From contig NZ_JAODIX010000055.1 of the NCBI RefSeq assembly GCF_026586675.1, positions 1-38,299 of the forward strand: a stretch of DNA of 38,299 nucleotides, read 5' to 3'. This document shows positions 1 through 18,941 of the stretch, one piece after another; position 1 is the first letter of the stretch; every line of letters begins with the position of its first letter. This stretch comes from Halorubrum yunnanense. Its GTDB lineage: Archaea > Halobacteriota > Halobacteria > Halobacteriales > Haloferacaceae. A program made the translations under genes and the position numbers. The notes below the pieces were generated by a model that searched no databases, was not told where the DNA came from, and was given only the letters and a program-made list of their open reading frames with translations.

Positions 1-139
1 AGTTTCCCGAGGGTATGATGGTCCGAAGGGTAGTTTGGCCACGTGTTACTGAGCTATTCGCCACGAGTCTAAGCTCGTGCGACTAGCATGGCTAAATCGA
101 ATCCCAATAGCAATGGCCTCCGGCAGGATCAACCGGAAT
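1..139 (-). rRNA. rrs: 16S ribosomal RNA, 5' end only (partial)
   Basis: Read on the minus strand, the sequence begins ATTCCGGTTGATCCTGCCGG, the universal archaeal 16S 5' end, and continues through the conserved helix containing GGCGAATAGCTCAGTAACAC. The gene runs off the left edge, so only about the first 139 nt are present. The 5' end is placed by comparison with known archaeal 16S genes; the mature end could differ by a few nt. It is transcribed leftward, away from the oriC1 region near 21.5 kb and so co-directional with a fork from that origin. Confidence 0.97.
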
Positions 140-184
140 GTATTCCTCAGTGCCTGATTCCCGGCGCTGAGGGGGTGTTGGCGG

Positions 185-209
185 GTTTTGACTCGCGATG
201 AGTCAAAAC
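185..209. repeat. Perfect inverted repeat in 16S leader
   Basis: The arms 185-194 (GTTTTGACTC) and 200-209 (GAGTCAAAAC) pair perfectly around a 5-nt loop. It sits about 46 nt upstream of the 16S 5' end and could be part of pre-rRNA folding, a processing signal, or a short terminator/antiterminator hairpin. Confidence 0.7.
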
Positions 210-342
210 ACCATTGCATGGTCTATGTGGTGTCCGAGTCAGCCAGCGACCTGGATGACACCGAACGACCACGGCTCACATCAGATTTCCTCTTACGCCG
301 GAGCGCAGGGGGCGAAATCCTCATCTTCGCGGACTTGATTGT

Positions 343-376
343 ACCCTTCGAGGGGTCATAAACCCATCGAAGCGTG
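343..376 (-). promoter_or_regulatory. rRNA promoter, downstream of two
   Basis: On the minus strand this reads GCTTCGATGGGTTTATGACC, with the TATA-like TTTATG at 357-362. It matches the lead-in of the promoter at 451-480 in content and spacing, so the two look like duplicated units firing into the same leader. Confidence 0.7.
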
Positions 377-450
377 TCAGGTCCAGCGAAACCGGGCCGA
401 CTTGAACGGCCCGAGTTCGCGGGTGCGTTCTTCGCATTAGTCACAATGCC

Positions 451-480
451 CGGGTTGTATTTAACCCCGTCGAAGCATCG
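451..480 (-). promoter_or_regulatory. rRNA promoter, upstream of two
   Basis: On the minus strand this reads GCTTCGACGGGGTTAAATAC. The TTAAATA box is at 458-464 with a purine/GC-rich BRE-like element just before it. Its GCTTCGAYGGG lead-in is shared with the second promoter about 100 nt downstream, as in known tandem haloarchaeal rRNA promoters. Transcription should start near 432-436. This is called from sequence pattern only. Confidence 0.75.
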
Positions 481-571
481 ACGCCACGTCATGCGGTTTC
501 ATGGCGAGGAACTGTGAACGAACACACAGATGCGCGGGGAAGGCGACAAAAAGGACCGACGACCCCGACAA

Positions 572-901
572 CTACTCCTCGTCGATATACTCAATTCCCT
601 GCTTCGACACGTTGGCCTTCGTGATGTCGTTGAGATCGTTGAGCCAGAAGTCCTCGTCCGCCTCGTCGACTTCGGGGGCGCTGTCCTTCCAAGCCCAGCC
701 CTCGTACTCGTGGACTTTCTTCGTTCCTTTCTCGCGGAGCCGAAGCGTGGTCCGGTTCGCCTCCTCTTCGGAGGGGGCCGGCTCGAGCGTGCGAGCCGCT
801 TTGAGCGCGGCCTGACGGGGCATGTTGCCGGAGAACTCACTCGGTTCCGATCCGTCCGCTTCTCGAAGGGCGAAGTTTCGCTTACCGTCTTCACGTACCA
901 T
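572..901 (-). CDS. MC1-type non-histone chromosomal protein
   Basis: This 109-residue protein is a member of the archaeal MC1 family of small DNA-bending chromosomal proteins, which bind DNA as monomers and compact or kink it. The family signature is visible: RNFALREADG at 8-17, MPRQAALKAAR at 27-37 and LRLREKGTKKVHEYEGW at 53-69, matching the Methanosarcina MC1 core. The haloarchaeal form has an acidic C-terminal tail (residues 77-109). It lies upstream of the rRNA operon on the same strand. An AT-rich box (about 935-947, ATATTTATTACAT on the minus strand) upstream of the ATG is the likely promoter. The family is clear; its genomic role in this organism is inferred from homologues. Confidence 0.93.
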   Translation of the reverse strand: MVREDGKRNFALREADGSEPSEFSGNMPRQAALKAARTLEPAPSEEEANRTTLRLREKGTKKVHEYEGWAWKDSAPEVDEADEDFWLNDLNDITKANVSKQGIEYIDEE

Positions 902-1160
902 GGTTTATGCTCCATGCGAACCCAGCACACAATATGTAATAAATATATCGGGAAAATGAAAGCTGCTCGGCAAAACATTTATATATCGACTCCATCCCGG
1001 CTAGCGGTTTTGCCCGATCGAGGCGGACGGTGTAGAGGAACGGAGCGACACACGGAGCGGAGTGACTGATCGGTACGTCACGCGCGGGCAGAAACAGCAG
1101 AAACGGAGACCGGATATCGCAGATTGAAGGCGGAACGGTCGGTGGGTCCGAAGAGTGCGG
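902..1160. other. Intergenic region between MC1 and the 382-bp element
   Basis: No gene is visible. Two AT-rich TATA-like clusters occur (about 930-950 and 971-988), the first probably serving MC1. The stretch 1036-1075 has the alternating GAACGGAGCGAC / GGAGCGGAGTGAC wording common in haloarchaeal spacer DNA. Nothing else is recognised. Confidence 0.6.
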
Positions 1161-1542
1161 GTACGGTTGACATCCTCTCCACGCTGAAGGGCGAAGATTC
1201 CCACGGCACCGCACCGCTGGGTTGGGATGTTGAAGGGTTGTAGACGCCTCGGTGACGGCTACTGGCTGTGCCAACCAGCTGTTACTCCTATCCCGGCATG
1301 GGATTCGGGGGTCCCTCTGACTGGCTACACCCTATTTCGGCACGGAAGAGAGTGTCTTCCGTTTGAAATGAGGGAATCCCGATACTGTCCGATTAGTGGG
1401 GCGGAGAGACCGCCCCGGTCAGTTTTAATTGTGTCTCAGATTAATTAAAACATTCTTTCGGCACGTCGAACGTGGTTTGTGCAGGATTTGTCGGATTCAT
1501 CCCCGCGGTGAACGGCTGGGCTTTCTCCTCAATTCTCCGTAA
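1161..1542. mobile_element. 382-bp non-coding element, copy 1 (IS200/IS605-like ends)
   Basis: This stretch aligns without gaps to 18560-18941 with 33 mismatches by hand count (about 91% identity). Each end carries a hairpin of the CGCCC-TGAA-GGGCG type that borders IS200/IS605 elements, both hairpins in the same orientation. On the minus strand the copy starts TTAC and ends TCAA (then CCGTAC), the tetranucleotides that serve as left and right cleavage sites in IS608. In this copy both end hairpins are damaged by mismatches. Internal stems are at 1263-1273, 1290-1304, 1343-1361, 1398-1416 and 1422-1451. There is no transposase. It ends just upstream of the promoter of the AbrB-like gene. It may be a non-autonomous element or a guide-RNA-type relic. 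Confidence 0.65.
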
Positions 1543-1590
1543 ACAACACTTATGTGTCTGCTATAGGGAAGTGCGACCAGTACAACCGCG

Positions 1591-1794
1591 ATGGTCCGCA
1601 AAAAGAAGCTCAGTCCCAGTGGCGCCAAGGACGACGAGGGGGAGTACCACAACGTCCACGTGAACCTCCACGAGGACGAACTCGCAGTCGCCGGCATGGA
1701 GATCGGCGACGAGGTGTTTGTTCGGGTGCGGGACGGGAAGATAATCATCCAGAAGGCGGACTCCAACCCCGAACAGCTCGAGCACGATTTCTGA
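1591..1794 (+). CDS. Small AbrB/SpoVT-like swapped-hairpin protein
   Basis: This 67-residue protein contains one AbrB/MazE-like swapped-hairpin motif at about 20-56 (VHVNLHEDELAVAGMEIGDE then VFVRVRDGKIIIQKA). The fold usually forms a DNA-binding dimer in transcription regulators and antitoxins. A basic N-terminus (VRKKKLS) is followed by an acidic linker. No toxin gene is adjacent, so a toxin-antitoxin role is not supported; a small haloarchaeal regulator is more likely. A TATA-like CTATAG at 1561-1566 lies 25-30 nt before the ATG. The next gene is pyrD on the same strand, 139 nt downstream. Confidence 0.8.
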   Translation: MVRKKKLSPSGAKDDEGEYHNVHVNLHEDELAVAGMEIGDEVFVRVRDGKIIIQKADSNPEQLEHDF

Positions 1795-1933
1795 AGCGGT
1801 CTCGTTTCTGCCCGCCCTCCGCTCCGCCGGCTCACCGTCGTGAGCGACGGCGACGACCAGCCCGCGCGTGCGACACGGGGTCTGGTCTCCGTCGGTCGGC
1901 GGATTGATGCCCGCTCGCGACGAGTCCGAAACG

Positions 1934-2989
1934 ATGGGCCCGTACGATCTGTTGAAGCCGGCGTTGTTCGGCCTCCCCCCGGAGGCCGCACACGGGATGA
2001 CACACCGGCTGTTGCGAGCCGTACAGGGGAGCCCGGTCGAGACTGCGCTGCGCGAGCGGTACGTCGTCGACGACCCGCGGTTGCGGGTCGAGGCGTTCGG
2101 GAACGCGTTCCCGAACCCGATCGGCGTGGCCGCCGGCTTCGACAAGAACGCGGAGGTGCCGCGTGCGCTCGCGTCGCTCGGGTTCGGGCACGTCGAGGTC
2201 GGCGGTGTGACGGCCGAGCGACAGCCGGGGAATCCGCGACCGCGACTGTTCCGGCTCCGGGAAGACGAGGCGCTGATCAACCGATTGGGATTCAACAACG
2301 AGGGCGCAGACGCCGTAGGCGCCCGGCTCGACCGCGAGCCGCTGCCCGACGTACCGGTCGGGATCAACATCGGCAAGTCGAAGTCGACGCCGCTCGCGGA
2401 GGCGCCGGGCGATTACCAGTACACCTACGAGCGCGTGGCGGACGCCGGCGACTACTTCGTCGTCAACGTCTCGAGCCCGAACACGCCGGGGCTTCGGGAG
2501 CTCCAGAACCGCGAGGCGTTAGAGGAGATACTCGGCGGCCTCGCCGACGCCGGCGCGAGTCCCCTGCTCGTGAAGCTCTCGCCGGACCTCCCGAAGCCGG
2601 CGGTCGCGGACGCGCTCGGCGTCGTCGACGATCTGGCCCTCGACGGCGTCATCGCGACCAACACCACGACCTCCCGCCCGGAGTCGCTGGAGAGCCCGAA
2701 CCGCGCCGAGCGCGGCGGCCTCTCCGGGAAGCCCATCGAGGGGATCGCCACCGATGGGGTTCGATTCGTCGCCGAGCGCACGGATGTCCCGGTGATCGGC
2801 GTCGGTGGAGTCACCGACGCGGCGGGCGCCTACGAGAAGATACGCGCGGGGGCCTCGCTCGTCCAGCTGTACACGGGGCTCGTGTACGAGGGGCCGAACC
2901 TCGCGCGCGACATCAACGAGGGGCTCCTCGAACTGCTCGAGCGAGACGGGTTCGACTCCGTCACCGACGCGGTCGGCGCGGATCTGTAG
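1934..2989 (+). CDS. pyrD: Dihydroorotate dehydrogenase (quinone), class 2
   Basis: The enzyme oxidises dihydroorotate to orotate in pyrimidine synthesis, passing electrons through FMN to the membrane quinone pool. The 351-residue protein begins with the class 2 helical membrane-association region (LLKPALFGLPPEAAHGMTHR). It continues with IGVAAGFDKN (63-72), GGVTAERQPGNPRPRLFRL (90-108), INRLGFNNEG (115-124), the catalytic-serine loop NVSSPNTPGLRELQ (178-191) and the FMN-phosphate segment VIGVGGVTDA (287-296). I chose ATG 1934 because conservation begins at MGPYDLLKPALFGL; an in-frame ATG at 1868 would add 22 atypical residues. It ends 29 nt before the convergent valS stop. Confidence 0.95.
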   Translation: MGPYDLLKPALFGLPPEAAHGMTHRLLRAVQGSPVETALRERYVVDDPRLRVEAFGNAFPNPIGVAAGFDKNAEVPRALASLGFGHVEVGGVTAERQPGNPRPRLFRLREDEALINRLGFNNEGADAVGARLDREPLPDVPVGINIGKSKSTPLAEAPGDYQYTYERVADAGDYFVVNVSSPNTPGLRELQNREALEEILGGLADAGASPLLVKLSPDLPKPAVADALGVVDDLALDGVIATNTTTSRPESLESPNRAERGGLSGKPIEGIATDGVRFVAERTDVPVIGVGGVTDAAGAYEKIRAGASLVQLYTGLVYEGPNLARDINEGLLELLERDGFDSVTDAVGADL

Positions 2990-3018
2990 TCGGCGCAGTC
3001 CACGGGCAGCCCCGGCTT

Positions 3019-5715
3019 CTACGACTCCCTAACGATGACGACGACGTCGTCGGCCTCCAGCAGCTCTCCGTCGCCCTGATACTGCCGTTCCTCCTCGATC
3101 GAGAACTCGTCGCCGACCAGGGTGACGCCGGACATGCGAAGCTCGTCACCGTCGATCTCGTACTCCTCCTTGGCGATCGCAGCCTCGATGTCGCCGACCC
3201 GGTTCCCGTACTTCGGACCGATGGTCGCGTAGTCGAGGTCGATCCCGGTGATCACAGTTTCGACGGGGGCGTCGGCGTCGGGATGGACCGCGAGGTCCGC
3301 GACGTGCATCACGCCCGTGATGTCGTCCTCGAAGCCGCGGACGTCGGCGTACACCTCGACGGCGTCCAGCTCGGCGTTCAGCGCGAGCTGGTTCTCGCTC
3401 TTGTACTTCCGGAGGGCGCCGACGACGGCGGTGGCGGCGGCGCCGGCCTCGTGGTCGGCCTCCAGCCCGAGCGGTTCGGGCCAGTCGGCGAGGTGGACCG
3501 AGTCGCCCGCGCCGTCGGTGACCGGGGTGTCGACCGCGTCGGGGTCGCTCGCTCCGTCCGCGTACATGTCGTGCCAGAGCTCCTCGGTCACGTGCGCGAG
3601 CAGGGGCGCGAACAGCTTCAGGAACCGGCGGTGCGCCGTTCGGAGCGTGTACGCCGCAGCGTCGTCCTCGCGCTGCTTTGCGATCTCGAGGTAGTCGTCG
3701 CAGAACGTGTTCCAGAAGAAGCTCCGGAGCTCGTCGCGGGCCTTCGAGAACGCGCGATCCTCGAACAGCTCGGTGAGCCGCTCGACCCGGTCGTCGAGCT
3801 CGGCGAGCAGCCAGCGGTCGAGCTCGCCGAGCTCCCCGTGGGCCGGCGCGTCCGGGTACGGCTCCGGCGCCAGCGACTCGACGAGCTTGGAGGCGTTCCA
3901 CAGCTTGCGGATCAGCTTCTCGCCCGCGCGGAGGTCCTTCTCTTTGAACGGGAAGTCGTCGCCGACGGCGGTGCCGGCGGCCCAGTAGCGCGTGGCGTCG
4001 ACCGGGAACTCCTCGAGCACGGCCTGGGGCTCGACGACGTTCCCGACGGATTTGGACATCTTCTCGCGGTTCTCGTCGAGGACGTGCCCGTTGATCATCG
4101 TCTCCTCGAACGGGACCTCGCCGGTGTGCTCGTAACACTTCACCAGCGTGTGGAACAGCCAGAAGCTGATGATGTCGTGACCCTGCGGCCGGAGGTCGAA
4201 CCGGTACAGCTCCGGGTGCTCCATTGTGAACGCCTCGGCCTCCTCGTCCCAGTCCCAGCCGGCGTTGATGAGGGGAGTGAGACTCGAGGTGGCCCACGTG
4301 TCGAGCACGTCGTCTTCCGGCTCGAACTCGTCGTGGCCGCATTCGGGGCACGCGTCGACGGGCGGGTCGTCGGAGAGGGGGTCGACGGGCAGGTCGGCCT
4401 TCTCGGCGACAACGACCTCGCCGCAGTCCTCGCAGTACCACACGGGGAACGGGATGCCGGAGGAGCGTTGACGGGAGATGAGCCAGTCCCACTGGAGCCC
4501 CTCCACCCAGTGTTCGTAGCGGGTGAACATCTTCTCGGGCGACCACTCCATCTCCCGGCCGACCTCGAGGTACTCGTCCGTCTTGTCGAGCATCTCGACG
4601 TACCACTGCTCGGTGACGAGGAACTCGACGCTCGTCTCGCAGCGCTCGTGGACGTTGACGGTGTGGGTGATCCCACGCCGGTCGAGCAGCGCGCCCGCCT
4701 CGTCGAGGTCCTCCACGATGGCCTCGCCGGCCTCGTCGGAGTGTAGTCCCTCGTACCCCTCGGCGACGTCGGTCATGTGGCCGGACTCGTCGATGGCGAC
4801 GCGGAGGTCCAGGTCGTGGACCTGGTACCACTCGATGTCGTTCTGGTCGCCGAACGTACAGCACATCACGATACCCGAGCCGGTCTCCATGTCGACACGC
4901 TCGTCGGCGATGATCGGGACCTCGTGTCCGAACAGCGGGACCTCCGCGAACTCGCCGACGAGGTCCTGGTTCTCATCGTCGTCGGGGTGGACGAAGACGG
5001 CGACGCACGCGGGGAGGAGTTCCGGGCGCGTCGTGGAGATGACGAACTCGTCAGGGGCGTCGGCGTCGTCAGCACCGCCGGCCTGGCCCTCGCCGCTTTC
5101 CGCGACCGGGAAGGCGATGTCGTGGAAGTGGCTGCCCTGCTGGTCGTCCTCAGTCTCAACTTGGGAGATGGCAGTCTCGCACTCGGGACACCAGATCGCG
5201 GGCGCCTTCTCGCGGTACTCGCGGCCCTGGTCGTATAGGTCGACGAACGACAGCTGAGAGACGCGCTGGACGCGCGGCTCGATGGTCTGGTAGGTGTGGT
5301 CCCAGTCGACGGAGACCCCGAGCGATTGGACGTTCTCGGTGAACTGCTCTTCGTAGTTCGCACAGACCTCCCGGCACTTCGCCTGGAACTTCCGGCGCTC
5401 GAACTCCTGGTGGCGGATGTCGAGCTCGTCCTCGGTCAGGCGCTCGGAGGCGATCCCGTTGTCGTCGTAGCCGAACGGGAAGAACGTCGCCTCGCCGTTC
5501 ATGCGCTCGAAACGCGCGACGAAGTCTTGGAGGGTAAACCCGTACAGGTGGCCCATGTGGAGGCTCCCCGATACCGTCGGCGGGGGCGTGTCGATAGAGA
5601 AGACGGTGTTCGGATCGACCGGGTCGTCGTCGGGGTAGGCGTACGTCTCCTCGTCGACCCATCGCCGCTGCCACCGGGGCTCGACGGCGTCGGGGTCGTA
5701 CTCACCACTGGGCAT
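3019..5715 (-). CDS. valS: Valyl-tRNA synthetase
   Basis: This class I synthetase charges tRNA-Val and edits mischarged threonine. The 898-residue length is typical. The HIGH motif appears as HMGH at 53-56 within PPTVSGSLHMGHLYGFTLQD, and KMSKS at 552-556 within ENREKMSKSVGN. Between them lies the CP1 editing domain (FVISTTRPELLPACVAVFVHP) and a zinc-binding stretch (VWYCEDCGEV and DACPECGHDEFEP). The C-terminal anticodon-binding domain ends in ADDVVVIVRES. A TATA-like CCGTTAAGGG (5741-5750 on the plus strand) lies 26-35 nt before ATG 5715. It is a single-gene unit. Confidence 0.97.
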   Translation of the reverse strand: MPSGEYDPDAVEPRWQRRWVDEETYAYPDDDPVDPNTVFSIDTPPPTVSGSLHMGHLYGFTLQDFVARFERMNGEATFFPFGYDDNGIASERLTEDELDIRHQEFERRKFQAKCREVCANYEEQFTENVQSLGVSVDWDHTYQTIEPRVQRVSQLSFVDLYDQGREYREKAPAIWCPECETAISQVETEDDQQGSHFHDIAFPVAESGEGQAGGADDADAPDEFVISTTRPELLPACVAVFVHPDDDENQDLVGEFAEVPLFGHEVPIIADERVDMETGSGIVMCCTFGDQNDIEWYQVHDLDLRVAIDESGHMTDVAEGYEGLHSDEAGEAIVEDLDEAGALLDRRGITHTVNVHERCETSVEFLVTEQWYVEMLDKTDEYLEVGREMEWSPEKMFTRYEHWVEGLQWDWLISRQRSSGIPFPVWYCEDCGEVVVAEKADLPVDPLSDDPPVDACPECGHDEFEPEDDVLDTWATSSLTPLINAGWDWDEEAEAFTMEHPELYRFDLRPQGHDIISFWLFHTLVKCYEHTGEVPFEETMINGHVLDENREKMSKSVGNVVEPQAVLEEFPVDATRYWAAGTAVGDDFPFKEKDLRAGEKLIRKLWNASKLVESLAPEPYPDAPAHGELGELDRWLLAELDDRVERLTELFEDRAFSKARDELRSFFWNTFCDDYLEIAKQREDDAAAYTLRTAHRRFLKLFAPLLAHVTEELWHDMYADGASDPDAVDTPVTDGAGDSVHLADWPEPLGLEADHEAGAAATAVVGALRKYKSENQLALNAELDAVEVYADVRGFEDDITGVMHVADLAVHPDADAPVETVITGIDLDYATIGPKYGNRVGDIEAAIAKEEYEIDGDELRMSGVTLVGDEFSIEEERQYQGDGELLEADDVVVIVRES

Positions 5716-5740
5716 TTCACGCCCATCTTCCGGCGGTTCC

Positions 5741-5750
5741 CCCTTAACGG
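5741..5750 (-). promoter_or_regulatory. TATA-like box of valS
   Basis: The minus strand reads CCGTTAAGGG, placed 26-35 nt before the valS ATG, which suggests a very short or absent leader. Confidence 0.55.
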
Positions 5751-5794
5751 CCTCGGTTGTGGGGGCGCGCTCTACGTCGCGCCGTCCGCGAGGC

Positions 5795-6049
5795 TCACAC
5801 CACGTCGTCGAGGTCGTGTTCGGCGGCCATCTCCGACGCCTCCGACGCGAACCGTTCGATCTCGTCGGCCGGGCTCTCGCCGAGCGCGGTCTCCTGGACC
5901 TCGCGGCCCGCGGTGACCCCGTCGCCGGTGACGAGCCGCTGTTCGGCCAGCTCTTTCGTGTGCATCCGCCTTCCGTCCTCGGTGGCGTAGGTGAGCCGCA
6001 CGAGCCCCTTCGAGTCGAACTGCCGGTCGACGAGCCAAACCGTAGTCAT
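5795..6049 (-). CDS. Small conserved haloarchaeal protein, function unknown
   Basis: This 84-residue protein begins MTTVWLVDRQFDSKGLVRLT. The first half looks like a three-strand beta sheet; the second half is a charged helix (ADEIERFASEASEMAAEHDLDDVV). No catalytic motif or membrane segment is seen. I chose the ATG at 6049 because a clear TATA-like CTTTTTAAGC lies 24-33 nt upstream; a longer reading frame to 6250 would run through that promoter and a dispersed repeat. It follows the valS promoter in the same orientation but has its own promoter. I recognise it only as a haloarchaeal hypothetical. Confidence 0.75.
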   Translation of the reverse strand: MTTVWLVDRQFDSKGLVRLTYATEDGRRMHTKELAEQRLVTGDGVTAGREVQETALGESPADEIERFASEASEMAAEHDLDDVV

Positions 6050-6072
6050 ACCCGGCGATGGGTGCCTGCGAC

Positions 6073-6082
6073 GCTTAAAAAG
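6073..6082 (-). promoter_or_regulatory. TATA-like box of the 84-residue protein gene
   Basis: The minus strand reads CTTTTTAAGC, 24-33 nt before the ATG at 6049. It decides the start over the longer open frame. Confidence 0.6.
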
Positions 6083-6119
6083 GGCGGTCGGGCTGTGGGA
6101 CGGGCGGTCAGCCGAGAGG

Positions 6120-6272
6120 CTCGATCTCGAACACCGATGCGGCCGGCGCGCGACGTAAGGACCGCAAGGAGCGAGCAACGGGAGCGGCTGAGGACCGCAA
6201 CGAGCGCACCGAGCCGTCGCGACTGGGGCTTTGGCGGTGCTCGCCGTCAATCTGCTGTCAGCGACTTATAAA
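6120..6272 (-). repeat. Dispersed TTTATA-headed repeat, copy A
   Basis: On the minus strand this starts TTTATAAGTCGC near 6272 and continues to CACCGCCAAAGCCCCAGTCG and CGACGG at 6214. It then runs into GC-rich arms with wording like CGCTCCCGTTGCTCGCTCC. The stretch 6214-6238 matches copy B (6722-6747) exactly in inverted orientation over about 26 nt. It fills most of the 370-nt gap before the ferredoxin gene. No gene is visible in it. Confidence 0.75.
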
Positions 6273-6419
6273 CGAGCAGCCGCGGTGTTGAAGATGACCG
6301 TCTCCAGGGCGATTCCGTATCCGCGTCTGTGTCGATCCGCGACCGGTTCGGTACGGGATAGAGACAATCCGGCGTACGGCGTCGCCAGCGCTTTGTACCG
6401 CCTCGTCGAACCAGAGGGT

Positions 6420-6662
6420 ATGCGCGTGAAGTTCGACCGCGACACCTGCGTCGGGATGTACCAGTGCGTCGCCGAGTGGGACGCCTTCGAGAAGAACCTG
6501 AACGACGGGAAGGCCGACCTGCGGGGGAGCGAGGAGGAAGACGACGACGTGTTCGTGGTCGAGGTGCCCGACGGCGAGGAGTTCGACGCGAAGTTCGCGG
6601 CGCGGGTCTGCCCGGTCGACGCCATCGAGGTGTACGACGACGACGGCGAACAGCTGGTGTAG
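6420..6662 (+). CDS. Single-cluster ferredoxin, three-cysteine type
   Basis: This 80-residue acidic ferredoxin resembles the [3Fe-4S]/[4Fe-4S] single-cluster ferredoxins that feed electrons to P450s and other redox partners. Cysteines are at 10 and 16 (DTCVGMYQC, a C-x5-C spacing) with a third in ARVCPVDAIEVYDDDG near residue 62. The usual second Cys of C-x2-C-x2-C is replaced, so a [3Fe-4S] cluster, or a [4Fe-4S] cluster with a non-Cys ligand, is expected. The middle is a long acidic insert (RGSEEEDDDVFVVEVPDGEEF). I chose ATG 6420 because MRVKFDRDTC matches family N-termini; the open frame to 6231 crosses a repeat. It is flanked by inverted copies of a dispersed repeat, and no partner gene is adjacent. 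Confidence 0.9.
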   Translation: MRVKFDRDTCVGMYQCVAEWDAFEKNLNDGKADLRGSEEEDDDVFVVEVPDGEEFDAKFAARVCPVDAIEVYDDDGEQLV

Positions 6663-6688
6663 TAGGACTCCAAATTTTCGCTCGGCCG

Positions 6689-6943
6689 CTTATAGGTCGT
6701 TACTGGCGGATCGACGGTGAACACCGCCAAAGCCCCAGTCGCGACGGCCCCTTTGAATCCCACCCGGCCGCACCGCAACCGCGGCCTCACACCTCCCCAG
6801 CCTCGCGGTTCGCGCTCTTCGAGCGCTCACCGCGTCCAGCGAGGGACCTCCGGTCCCTCTGGCAGCCGGCGCGTAGCGCCGGCGACCTCGCACGCTCCTC
6901 GCGCCCTTATCAGGGCGCTCGGAGGCGCGCGCCGAGATAAACA
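6689..6943 (+). repeat. Dispersed TTTATA-headed repeat, copy B, with a row of hairpins
   Basis: The copy starts with TTATAGGTCG (6690), then CACCGCCAAAGCCCCAGTCG (6722-6741), CCCCTTTGAATCCCACC and CCTCCCCAGCCTCG. It then holds four perfect or near-perfect hairpins (6812-6826, 6842-6858, 6865-6883, 6901-6918) and ends GGAGGCGCGCGCC near 6933. The order of blocks matches copy D at 30317-30610. It fills the gap between the ferredoxin and hemB genes; no coding sequence is supported. Confidence 0.8.
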
Positions 6944-6976
6944 ATCAGCAAGAGCGTCAGTGTTCACTGCTTCGGT

Positions 6977-7957
6977 TTATAAGCGCTTGGCCAGGTCCTC
7001 GGCGAAGTACGTGACGATCAGGTCCGCACCCGCGCGCTTGAGCGACAGCAGCGACTCGTGGGCGGTGTCTTCGAGATCGAGCCACCCCTTCTCTGCGGCC
7101 GCGTGCAGCATCGCGTACTCCCCGGAGACGTTGTACGCAGCGATCGGGCGGTCGAACTCCCGTCGGAGGTCGCCGACGATATCGAGGTAGGGGAGGCCGG
7201 GCTTCACCATCAGCACGTCCGCGCCCTCCTCGGCGTCGATCCGCGCCTCGCGGAGCGCTTCGCGGCGGTTCGCGGGGTCCATCTGGTAGTGGCGCCGGTC
7301 GCCGAAGGCGGGGGCACCGTCGGCCGCGTCGCGGAAGGGGCCGTAGAAGGCGGACTCGTACTTGGCCGCGTAGCTCATCAGCGCCACCTCCTCGTGGCCG
7401 GCCTCGTCGAGCGCCTCGCGGATCGCCCGGACCTGACCGTCCGTCATCGCCGACGGCGCGACCATGTCCGCGCCAGCCTCCGCCTGCGAGACGGCTGTCT
7501 CCGCGAGCAGGGCCAGCGTCTCGTCGTTCCTCACGGTGAGGGTGGGATCCGTCTCGGCCGACTCCTCGATCACGCCGCAGTGACCGTGATCGGTGTACTC
7601 GCAGAGGCAGACGTCGCCGATCACGTACGCGTCGGTCTCGGCGGTGATCCGTCGGATCGCGCGCTGAACGACCCCGTCCTCGGCGTACGCGCGGGACCCC
7701 TCGGCGTCCTTCGACTCGGGGATCCCGAAGAGGATCACGGCCTCGACGCCGGTCTCGCGGACCTCTTCGACGCGGGCGACCGCCTCGCTCACGGGAACGC
7801 GCTCGTGGCCCGGCATCGTCTCGATCGGGACGCGCTCGTCGGTCGTCGCGTCCACGAAGACGGGCGCGACGAGGTCCGACGCCGACAGCGAGGTCTCGCT
7901 GACGAGCGGGCGGACGCCGTCGGTCCGGAGCCGTCGCGGCCGGTCGGTGGGGTGCAT
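6977..7957 (-). CDS. hemB: Delta-aminolevulinate dehydratase (porphobilinogen synthase)
   Basis: The enzyme condenses two 5-aminolevulinate molecules to porphobilinogen in heme and cobalamin synthesis. The 326-residue length is standard. Visible features are the metal site Cys117, Cys119 and Cys127 (DVCLCEYTDHGHCG), the Schiff-base lysines K199 (YAAKYESAFYGPFR) and K252 (MVKPGLPYLD), and the motif AYNVSGEYAM (274-283). The three-Cys site indicates a zinc-dependent enzyme. The start at 7957 is supported by a TATA-like ATCATAAAAG at 7982-7991. A perfect 7-bp inverted repeat (7959-7976) lies between the box and the ATG and could be an operator. It is a single-gene unit; other heme genes are not in the window. 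Confidence 0.96.
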   Translation of the reverse strand: MHPTDRPRRLRTDGVRPLVSETSLSASDLVAPVFVDATTDERVPIETMPGHERVPVSEAVARVEEVRETGVEAVILFGIPESKDAEGSRAYAEDGVVQRAIRRITAETDAYVIGDVCLCEYTDHGHCGVIEESAETDPTLTVRNDETLALLAETAVSQAEAGADMVAPSAMTDGQVRAIREALDEAGHEEVALMSYAAKYESAFYGPFRDAADGAPAFGDRRHYQMDPANRREALREARIDAEEGADVLMVKPGLPYLDIVGDLRREFDRPIAAYNVSGEYAMLHAAAEKGWLDLEDTAHESLLSLKRAGADLIVTYFAEDLAKRL

Positions 7958-7958
7958 G

Positions 7959-7976
7959 CCGGAGCGTTGGCTCCGG
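7959..7976. promoter_or_regulatory. Inverted repeat over the hemB transcription start, operator candidate
   Basis: The sequence CCGGAGC-GTTG-GCTCCGG is a perfect 7-bp dyad with a 4-nt centre. It falls between the TATA-like box (7982-7991) and the hemB ATG (7955-7957), so it would overlap the expected start of transcription. A repressor site or a leader hairpin are both possible. Confidence 0.5.
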
Positions 7977-7981
7977 GCGGC

Positions 7982-7991
7982 CTTTTATGAT
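7982..7991 (-). promoter_or_regulatory. TATA-like box of hemB
   Basis: The minus strand reads ATCATAAAAG, 25-34 nt before the hemB ATG. Confidence 0.6.
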
Positions 7992-8058
7992 CCGTCCGCG
8001 GCGAGCCGGCGCGGTCCGGGGAGCGCGCACGGAAGCGGCGAGATCGGAGACCGAGAGC

Positions 8059-18522: not shown

Positions 18523-18559
18523 GGGGAGATAGACGGGAGTACACGGGTTCGACGGGAGT

Positions 18560-18941
18560 GTACGGTTGACATCCTCTCCGCCCTGAAGGGCGAAGATTCC
18601 CACGGCACCGCACCGCTGGGTTGGGATGTTGAAGGTTTGTAGACGCCTCGATGACGGCTACTGGCTGTGCCAACCAGCCGTTACTCCTATCCCGGCATGG
18701 GATTCGGAGGTACTTCTGACTGCCTACACCCTATTTCGACACGGAAGAGGGTGTCTTCCGCTTGAAATGAGGGAATCCCGATATTGTCCGATTAGTGGGG
18801 CGGAGAGACCGCCTCGGTTGCCATTAAATACGTCTCAGGTTACTTGAAACATCCTTTCGGCACGCCGAACGTGGTTCGTGGAGGGTTTGTCGGATTCATC
18901 CCCGCCGTGAACGGCGAGGCTTTCTCCTCAATTCTCCGTAA
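18560..18941. mobile_element. 382-bp non-coding element, copy 2 (IS200/IS605-like ends)
   Basis: This is a gap-free partner of 1161-1542, same orientation, about 91% identical. Here both end hairpins are intact: CGCCC-TGAA-GGGCG near 18579-18592 and CGCCG-TGAA-CGGCG near 18902-18915, both with TGAA loops. On the minus strand the unit starts TTAC (18938-18941) and ends TCAA (18566-18569) before CCGTAC. Internal stems match copy 1 (about 18662-18672, 18689-18703, 18742-18760, 18797-18815). It sits between the convergent signal peptidase and orc1 genes, 22 nt beyond the orc1 stop. It has no transposase and no supported protein. It could be a MITE-like derivative moved by a TnpA elsewhere, or a structured RNA gene. 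Confidence 0.68.

Follow-up and report, generated by a model that had tools for sequence, protein, structure and literature searches.

A mobile non-coding IS200/IS605-family element of Halorubrum yunnanense that probably encodes a guide RNA and no protein

The DNA analysed here, called the window, is a 38,299-nucleotide stretch of the Halorubrum yunnanense genome (contig NZ_JAODIX010000055.1), which carries two copies, A and B, of a non-coding element on its minus strand (Table 1). The initial annotation had described these as two gap-free copies of 382 bp, about 91% identical. Pairwise alignment over 382 bp confirmed the identity (91.4%) and the absence of gaps (0), but not the length: matches of other copies begin at base 7 of the 382-bp unit, the first 6 bp of which (GTACGG) are flanking DNA that is the same in copies A and B, and the true unit is 376 bp. 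This identical 6-nt right flank (CCGTAC on the minus strand, window 1161-1166 and 18560-18565) is probably due to chance. At the corrected ends, both copies start with TTAC and end with TCAA on the minus strand, and hairpins were found near both ends, as had been reported. No open tnpA or tnpB was found inside the 376-bp element, which is too short for a transposase; it holds only a short remnant of a tnpB 3′ end, and the earlier description of a unit without transposase was thus correct. An ORF that starts near 1590 lies about 50 bp downstream of the copy A insertion. A minus-strand archaeal 16S rRNA gene has its 5′ end in window positions 1-139; about 1 kb separates it from copy A, which lies upstream.

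Table 1. Features of the element in the window. For copy B, a minus-strand position p equals 18942 minus the window coordinate.
Feature	Window position	Strand	Details
Element, copy B	18566-18941	-	376 bp including the TTAC target; ends set by 33 copies with unrelated flanks
Element, copy A	1167-1542	-	376 bp; identity to copy B 91%; congeners with an exact empty site
C_L target/cleavage tetranucleotide	18938-18941	-	TTAC (GTAA on +); kept in 8 congener empty sites; covaries with G_L
Left end	18900-18923	-	G_L AAAG 18923-18920; subterminal hairpin CCTCGCCGTTCACGGCGGGG 18919-18900
Promoter-like block	18829-18849	-	TATA-like TTTCAA 18849-18844 (consensus TTTTAA); CGTA 18832-18829 at about -10
Extra 5′ structured domain (R1), copy B	18705-18817	-	R1 126.7 bits
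Extra 5′ structured domain (R1), copy A	1306-1418	-	R1 113.7 bits
Relic of tnpB 3′ coding end, non-functional	18662-18692	-	GWLAQP codons; 31 bp identical to tnpB at C1 and C90
omegaRNA-like scaffold, copy B	18575-18715	-	Rfam RF02656 sot0042 model 1-174, 75.5 bits (curated gathering score 88), E 6.7e-18
omegaRNA-like scaffold, copy A	1176-1316	-	sot0042 44.9 bits, E 8e-9
Right end	18566-18599	-	G_R GAAT 18599-18596; hairpin 18595-18576; C_R TCAA 18569-18566
Right flank, expected guide segment if used as omegaRNA (inferred)	18546-18565	-	Placed by its position relative to the right end; differs per copy

The H. yunnanense genome holds at least 13 near-full copies, and the flanks differ from copy to copy. 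The 11 further near-full-length copies located elsewhere in the genome were 78-99% identical, a recurrence far beyond chance, and five of the genome's copies were 97-99% identical to copy B. The ends of the element also gave many partial matches across the same genome.

The flanks of 33 copies, taken from this genome and from relatives, were unrelated to each other, and the left TTAC and the right TCAA were common to all save a few decayed or truncated copies. The two flanks of copy A were joined in silico and compared with congeners. In eight of them the site was uninterrupted, and GTAA, which reads TTAC on the opposite strand, was preserved precisely at the junction. At the site of copy B, the insert was absent in all 9 congeners examined, the intergenic stretch there being too variable for a base-by-base alignment. 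Unrelated flanks and exact empty sites mean that the element is mobile. Insertion is precise, into TTAC, and without target duplication. Homologues fixed at the same syntenic loci, with no empty sites, had been named as the pattern that would speak against mobility; this is not what was seen, and a fixed RNA or regulatory locus is ruled out by the differing flanks and the empty sites. A classical MITE is ruled out as well, as the TTAC and TCAA ends are not inverted repeats and no duplication is present at the empty site. One congener (G029:C2) contained five near-identical copies, and the two that were inspected (L055 1501-1846 and L069 1501-1846) carried a deletion of about 30 bp between the left end and the promoter-like box, with the TTTAA box retained. 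As these copies have spread despite the deletion, the deleted spacer is dispensable for spread.

In the scheme established for IS608, Watson-Crick contacts form between the cleavage site and a guide tetranucleotide, the cleavage/guide combinations being TTAC/AAAG and TCAA/GAAT. The present element has these same tetranucleotides 5′ of its hairpins, and differs from the Helicobacter pylori IS608 in being non-coding, with neither tnpA nor tnpB. Over 83 copies, the left C_L/G_L combination was TTAC/AAAG in 54 and CTAT/AGAA in 21, and the right C_R/G_R combination was TCAA/GAAT in 55 and TCAC/GAAG in 23. Cleavage and guide tetranucleotides placed 5′ of hairpins, the arrangement of IS200/IS605 elements, thus covary at both ends. 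That the changes match the Watson-Crick prediction argues that a Y1 transposase reads the element ends. The tetranucleotide guide rule is stated in PMC7290912. Double changes were also present in the pairs of the left-end hairpin, and the C_L TTAC occupies the position at which a TAM would be expected for a TnpB. Differing flanks, exact empty sites and this covarying recognition code together bear out the initial annotation's view of a mobile element with IS200/IS605-type ends. Relatives of the CTAT/TCAC lineage were also found in the H. yunnanense genome (C62, C70, C25), so that one cell appears to harbour both target specificities.

An autonomous member would carry its own Y1 TnpA. Four tnpA matches were found, all elsewhere in the genome, and TnpA supplied in trans presumably moves the element. 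A search of the same genome for full-length relatives carrying tnpA or tnpB, as had been advised, yielded three elements with matching ends, C1, C90 and C38. The left 54-58 nt and the right 66-70 nt match the tnpB elements C1:108261-109763 and C90. The left end is 88-89% identical over 54-57 bp to the C38, C1 and C90 elements, and the right end is 91-92% identical over 66 bp to C1 and C90. An open TnpB of 433 aa is encoded at C1:108339-109637, within the element C1:108261-109763, and C38:114980-116818, which matches the left end (88%), is a complete element in which both the TnpA and the TnpB reading frame are intact. The suggestion of a distinct family was only partly right, since the ends match those of TnpB-bearing elements and, at the left, of one with both TnpA and TnpB, and since the class is known under the name of PATEs (PMC3119063). 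The near-terminal palindromes resemble those of IS605-type elements and terminal inverted repeats are absent; no transposase gene is present, and congener empty sites with TTAC kept attest to mobility, precise insertion and the absence of target duplication. The element is a PATE, a known class of transposase-free IS200/IS605 derivatives, described in Haloquadratum walsbyi (PMC3119063) and Halanaerobium (PMC7290912).

The DNA between the ends, described earlier as hairpin-rich, is indeed structured, but consists mostly of two parts that had gone unrecognised, an omegaRNA-like scaffold and a covarying extra domain. The scaffold was found with the Rfam model of sot0042, a haloarchaeal tnpB-associated RNA now identified with omegaRNA (PMC12558985). 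The alignment of copy B spans the model from end to end and takes in the right-end hairpin; its score is below the gathering score, as is that of copy A, and the tnpB elements at C1 and C90 score 164-168. Contrary to the position of sot0042 at tnpB 3′ ends, there is no tnpB in the element, and none was found at 53 loci that have the extra domain. Double changes were present in the scaffold and end helices, and few parts of the element are as conserved as the 5′ half of the scaffold, about 100-150 nt away from the right end. The right end and scaffold also gave sub-threshold yet significant matches to Rfam HgcC (RF00062), with E values of about 1e-4 (L166 1488-1618; L001 1495-1623). HgcC, an archaeal RNA family, might itself be related to IS200/IS605 elements.

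Next to the scaffold, on its 5′ side, lies an extra structured domain (R1) of about 110 nt, whose fold is constant across differing sequences. Its main hairpin exists in several versions, CGGAAGA/TCTTCCG, CAGAAAG/CTTTCTG and GTTCGAGA/TCTCGAAC, all of which gave the same fold when sequences were folded one by one. When 35 copies of the TTAC lineage were aligned, 93.5% of the cells paired, against 38-57% with the partners slid. With 42 copies from both lineages, in an alignment made with the covariance model and hence fitted to it, 94.1% of the cells paired (at most 53% in slid controls), and double, compensatory changes were seen in 17 of the 26 pairs. RNAalifold applied to a MAFFT alignment of 83 copies missed the main hairpin, which MAFFT had shifted between lineages; per-sequence folding and the covariance model were used instead. 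We conclude that the extra 5′ domain is under selection for base pairing. Read on the minus strand, the ratio of G.T to A.C was 49:21 in the extra domain, 91:15 in the scaffold and 53:9 in the left end. This excess of G.T means that the minus strand is the structured one. As the left end, which acts as DNA, has the same bias, the bias alone cannot separate RNA from single-stranded DNA, and the conservation of base pairs could come in part from single-stranded DNA hairpins used in transposition rather than from RNA.

R1 was absent from the stretches of own-genome tnpB elements tested, the only match being a weak one (C92) in an adjacent, separate non-coding element. A simple internal deletion of such a tnpB element is therefore insufficient to produce the present one. 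A second non-coding family of about 520 bp (C44, C46, C38, C97, C92, C22; L249 1278-1795) was also observed. Its members match R1 and sot0042 weakly and contain no tnpB, and they may form a sister family whose RNA is larger.

A strongly conserved block, ATGTTTTAAGTAA, lies between the left end and the extra domain, with CGTA about 17 nt further on. The domain opens with the motif CCGAGG. Of the 76 copies where this motif and the box could both be placed, 64 have the box starting 31-32 nt ahead of the motif. A TATA box is centred near -27 relative to the start of transcription, and from this spacing the RNA is predicted to start at about 18819-18820 on the minus strand, just before the extra domain and, for a start near 18820, 3-5 nt 5′ of CCGAGGCGG. 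The arrangement resembles haloarchaeal promoters, which according to PMC4983044 combine a box of TATA type with a WW element at -10.

The search of haloarchaeal genomes that the initial annotation had called for was carried out, and gave DNA matches (E ≤ 1e-15), some of them to shared ends only. Of 391 genomes of the class, 106 had such matches, as did 44 of the 86 genera. Near-full-length copies, mostly of 369-381 bp, occur in several families. A copy on plasmid pNRC200 of Halobacterium salinarum NRC-1, at 267908-268286, is 84.8% identical, and the gene table of the plasmid has no gene over the match. Of 145 genomes, 52 had an R1 match, and the model matched at 24 places in the H. yunnanense genome. 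The right end and the adjoining flank, the would-be guide, were intact in nearly all copies. Short matches to the element (E ≤ 1e-3) were also found in 828 Klebsiella records of a plasmid collection; these are probably the conserved right-end motif of bacterial IS200/IS605 elements.

With respect to the distribution of the element and its INDEPENDENCE from tnpB, no tnpB lay within the element at any of the 53 R1 loci (an opposite-strand tnpB was nearby in two), as searched with eight own-genome TnpB proteins, by which distant TnpBs could be missed. R1 appears to mark a lineage that is constitutively devoid of tnpB. The cognate TnpB clade was present in 46 of 51 R1 genomes and in 49 of 90 others (odds ratio 7.7, Fisher p 1e-5), and TnpA in 44 of 51 and 52 of 90, respectively (p 6e-4). 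These values are not corrected for phylogeny, and the counts omit one R1-positive genome absent from the other draws. At the threshold used, the cognate TnpB clade was absent from at least five element-bearing genomes.

Concerning expression, the sot RNAs, or omegaRNAs, of haloarchaea are reported to be expressed (PMC12558985), and a 489-bp PATE shared by the Halorubrum tailed virus DL1 and Halorubrum lacusprofundi is described as strongly transcribed at one end, in one direction (PMC10544981). Transcription of a Halorubrum virus PATE makes expression of the present element plausible. Identity between the two is unsupported: no R1 match was found within positions 1-8000 and 14848-66249 of the virus, and the only match to the element was one of 44 bp resembling the left end, between annotated genes (OP630575.1 16048-16091).

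Our preferred reading, which we consider probable, is that of a non-autonomous IS200/IS605-family element, a PATE, that encodes a guide RNA and no protein, and that uses TnpA and probably TnpB in trans. TnpA from IS605-type elements would excise and insert it. Transcription would begin near 18820 on the minus strand, from a TATA-type promoter that the element itself carries, and the transcript would run through the 5′ domain, the scaffold and the right end into the flank, which would serve as the guide segment. A TnpB provided in trans by an IS1341 or IS605 relative may then bind this RNA. As TTAC stands immediately 5′ of the flank in the empty site, TnpB loaded with this RNA would cut the empty allele, TTAC plus flank. 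Recombination following the cut would restore a lost element and spread it to empty alleles, in the way proposed for tnpB transposons, in which cutting drives the restoration of the element. The extra domain would give the RNA stability or an advantage in the competition for TnpB, or else stand in for features that went missing with the tnpB message. The wider proposal, that of a class-wide lineage of guide-RNA-only transposons in which a promoter-driven omegaRNA with an extra domain hijacks TnpB and TnpA in trans, and which switched from TTAC to CTAT at least once with compensating ends, is put forward more tentatively; it could well be right, without our calling it probable.

Alternatively, the element may be no more than an ordinary PATE that arose from a tnpB element by deletion and is moved passively by TnpA in trans, with an omegaRNA relic retained on account of its overlap with the right end and hairpins that function as DNA only. 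PATEs with a 3′ tnpB remnant are known (HqIRS71, PMC3119063; Halanaerobium, PMC7290912), and the ends are common to autonomous elements. The extra domain nevertheless lies far from either end, does not occur in the tnpB elements that were tested, and still pairs despite complete sequence turnover; of the rival explanations, it is the passive relic that such a domain argues against most. Strong conservation of the 5′ half of the scaffold, at its distance from the right end, and the persistence of an identical layout throughout the class also speak against a relic, and we regard this explanation as unlikely.

It has also to be considered that the RNA acts as a decoy or inhibitor, an omegaRNA-like molecule that occupies or mis-targets TnpB and so shields the element or its host from tnpB transposons. 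A shared scaffold to which a domain has been added, the lack of tnpB, and the association of the element with the TnpB clade would fit such a role, which we nevertheless judge improbable, because a decoy needs neither the right end nor the flank and both are maintained. Use by the host as a regulatory RNA or DNA that resides on a mobile element, for instance with a nuclease-dead TnpB-like protein or as a promoter or terminator cassette, seems very improbable indeed in view of scattered insertion sites, unrelated flanks and empty sites in congeners, even if the promoter-like block and the location of copy A just upstream of an ORF could be taken in its favour.

Returning to the guide-RNA element that we favour, its relation to known systems is the following. 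The Haloquadratum walsbyi PATEs resemble it in being transposase-free, with subterminal palindromes, IS605-type ends, no target duplication and strain-specific insertions, and one of them, HqIRS71, contains a portion of the sequence that codes for the TnpB C-terminus (PMC3119063). In the descriptions given there, they are treated as degenerate or core-deleted elements and no guide RNA is named (PMC3119063). Going by these descriptions, the present element differs by a covarying, RNA-like extra domain and by its class-wide distribution. Compared to sot0042 RNAs, it lacks tnpB, has a shorter apical helix and the 5′ domain in addition, and possesses a putative promoter of its own. The C38, C1 and C90 elements, unlike it, carry tnpA and tnpB, or tnpB, and do not have the extra domain. 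What is new here is the presence of a complete omegaRNA-like scaffold, an extra structured domain and a promoter-like box inside a PATE. A keyword search of the open-access literature returned no description of a tnpB-less element with an omegaRNA, with or without an extra covarying domain; this result supports novelty weakly.

Cas12 descends from TnpB, and omegaRNAs have been studied as by-products of tnpB messages. If our reading is true, a guide RNA can itself be the selfish unit, parasitising nucleases in trans. The element offers a ready test of the use of omegaRNA in trans in tractable haloarchaea, and a natural extended scaffold, which may bind TnpB differently. Its covarying code, with two specificities in one lineage, is natural evidence on how target choice evolves in the IS200/IS605 family.
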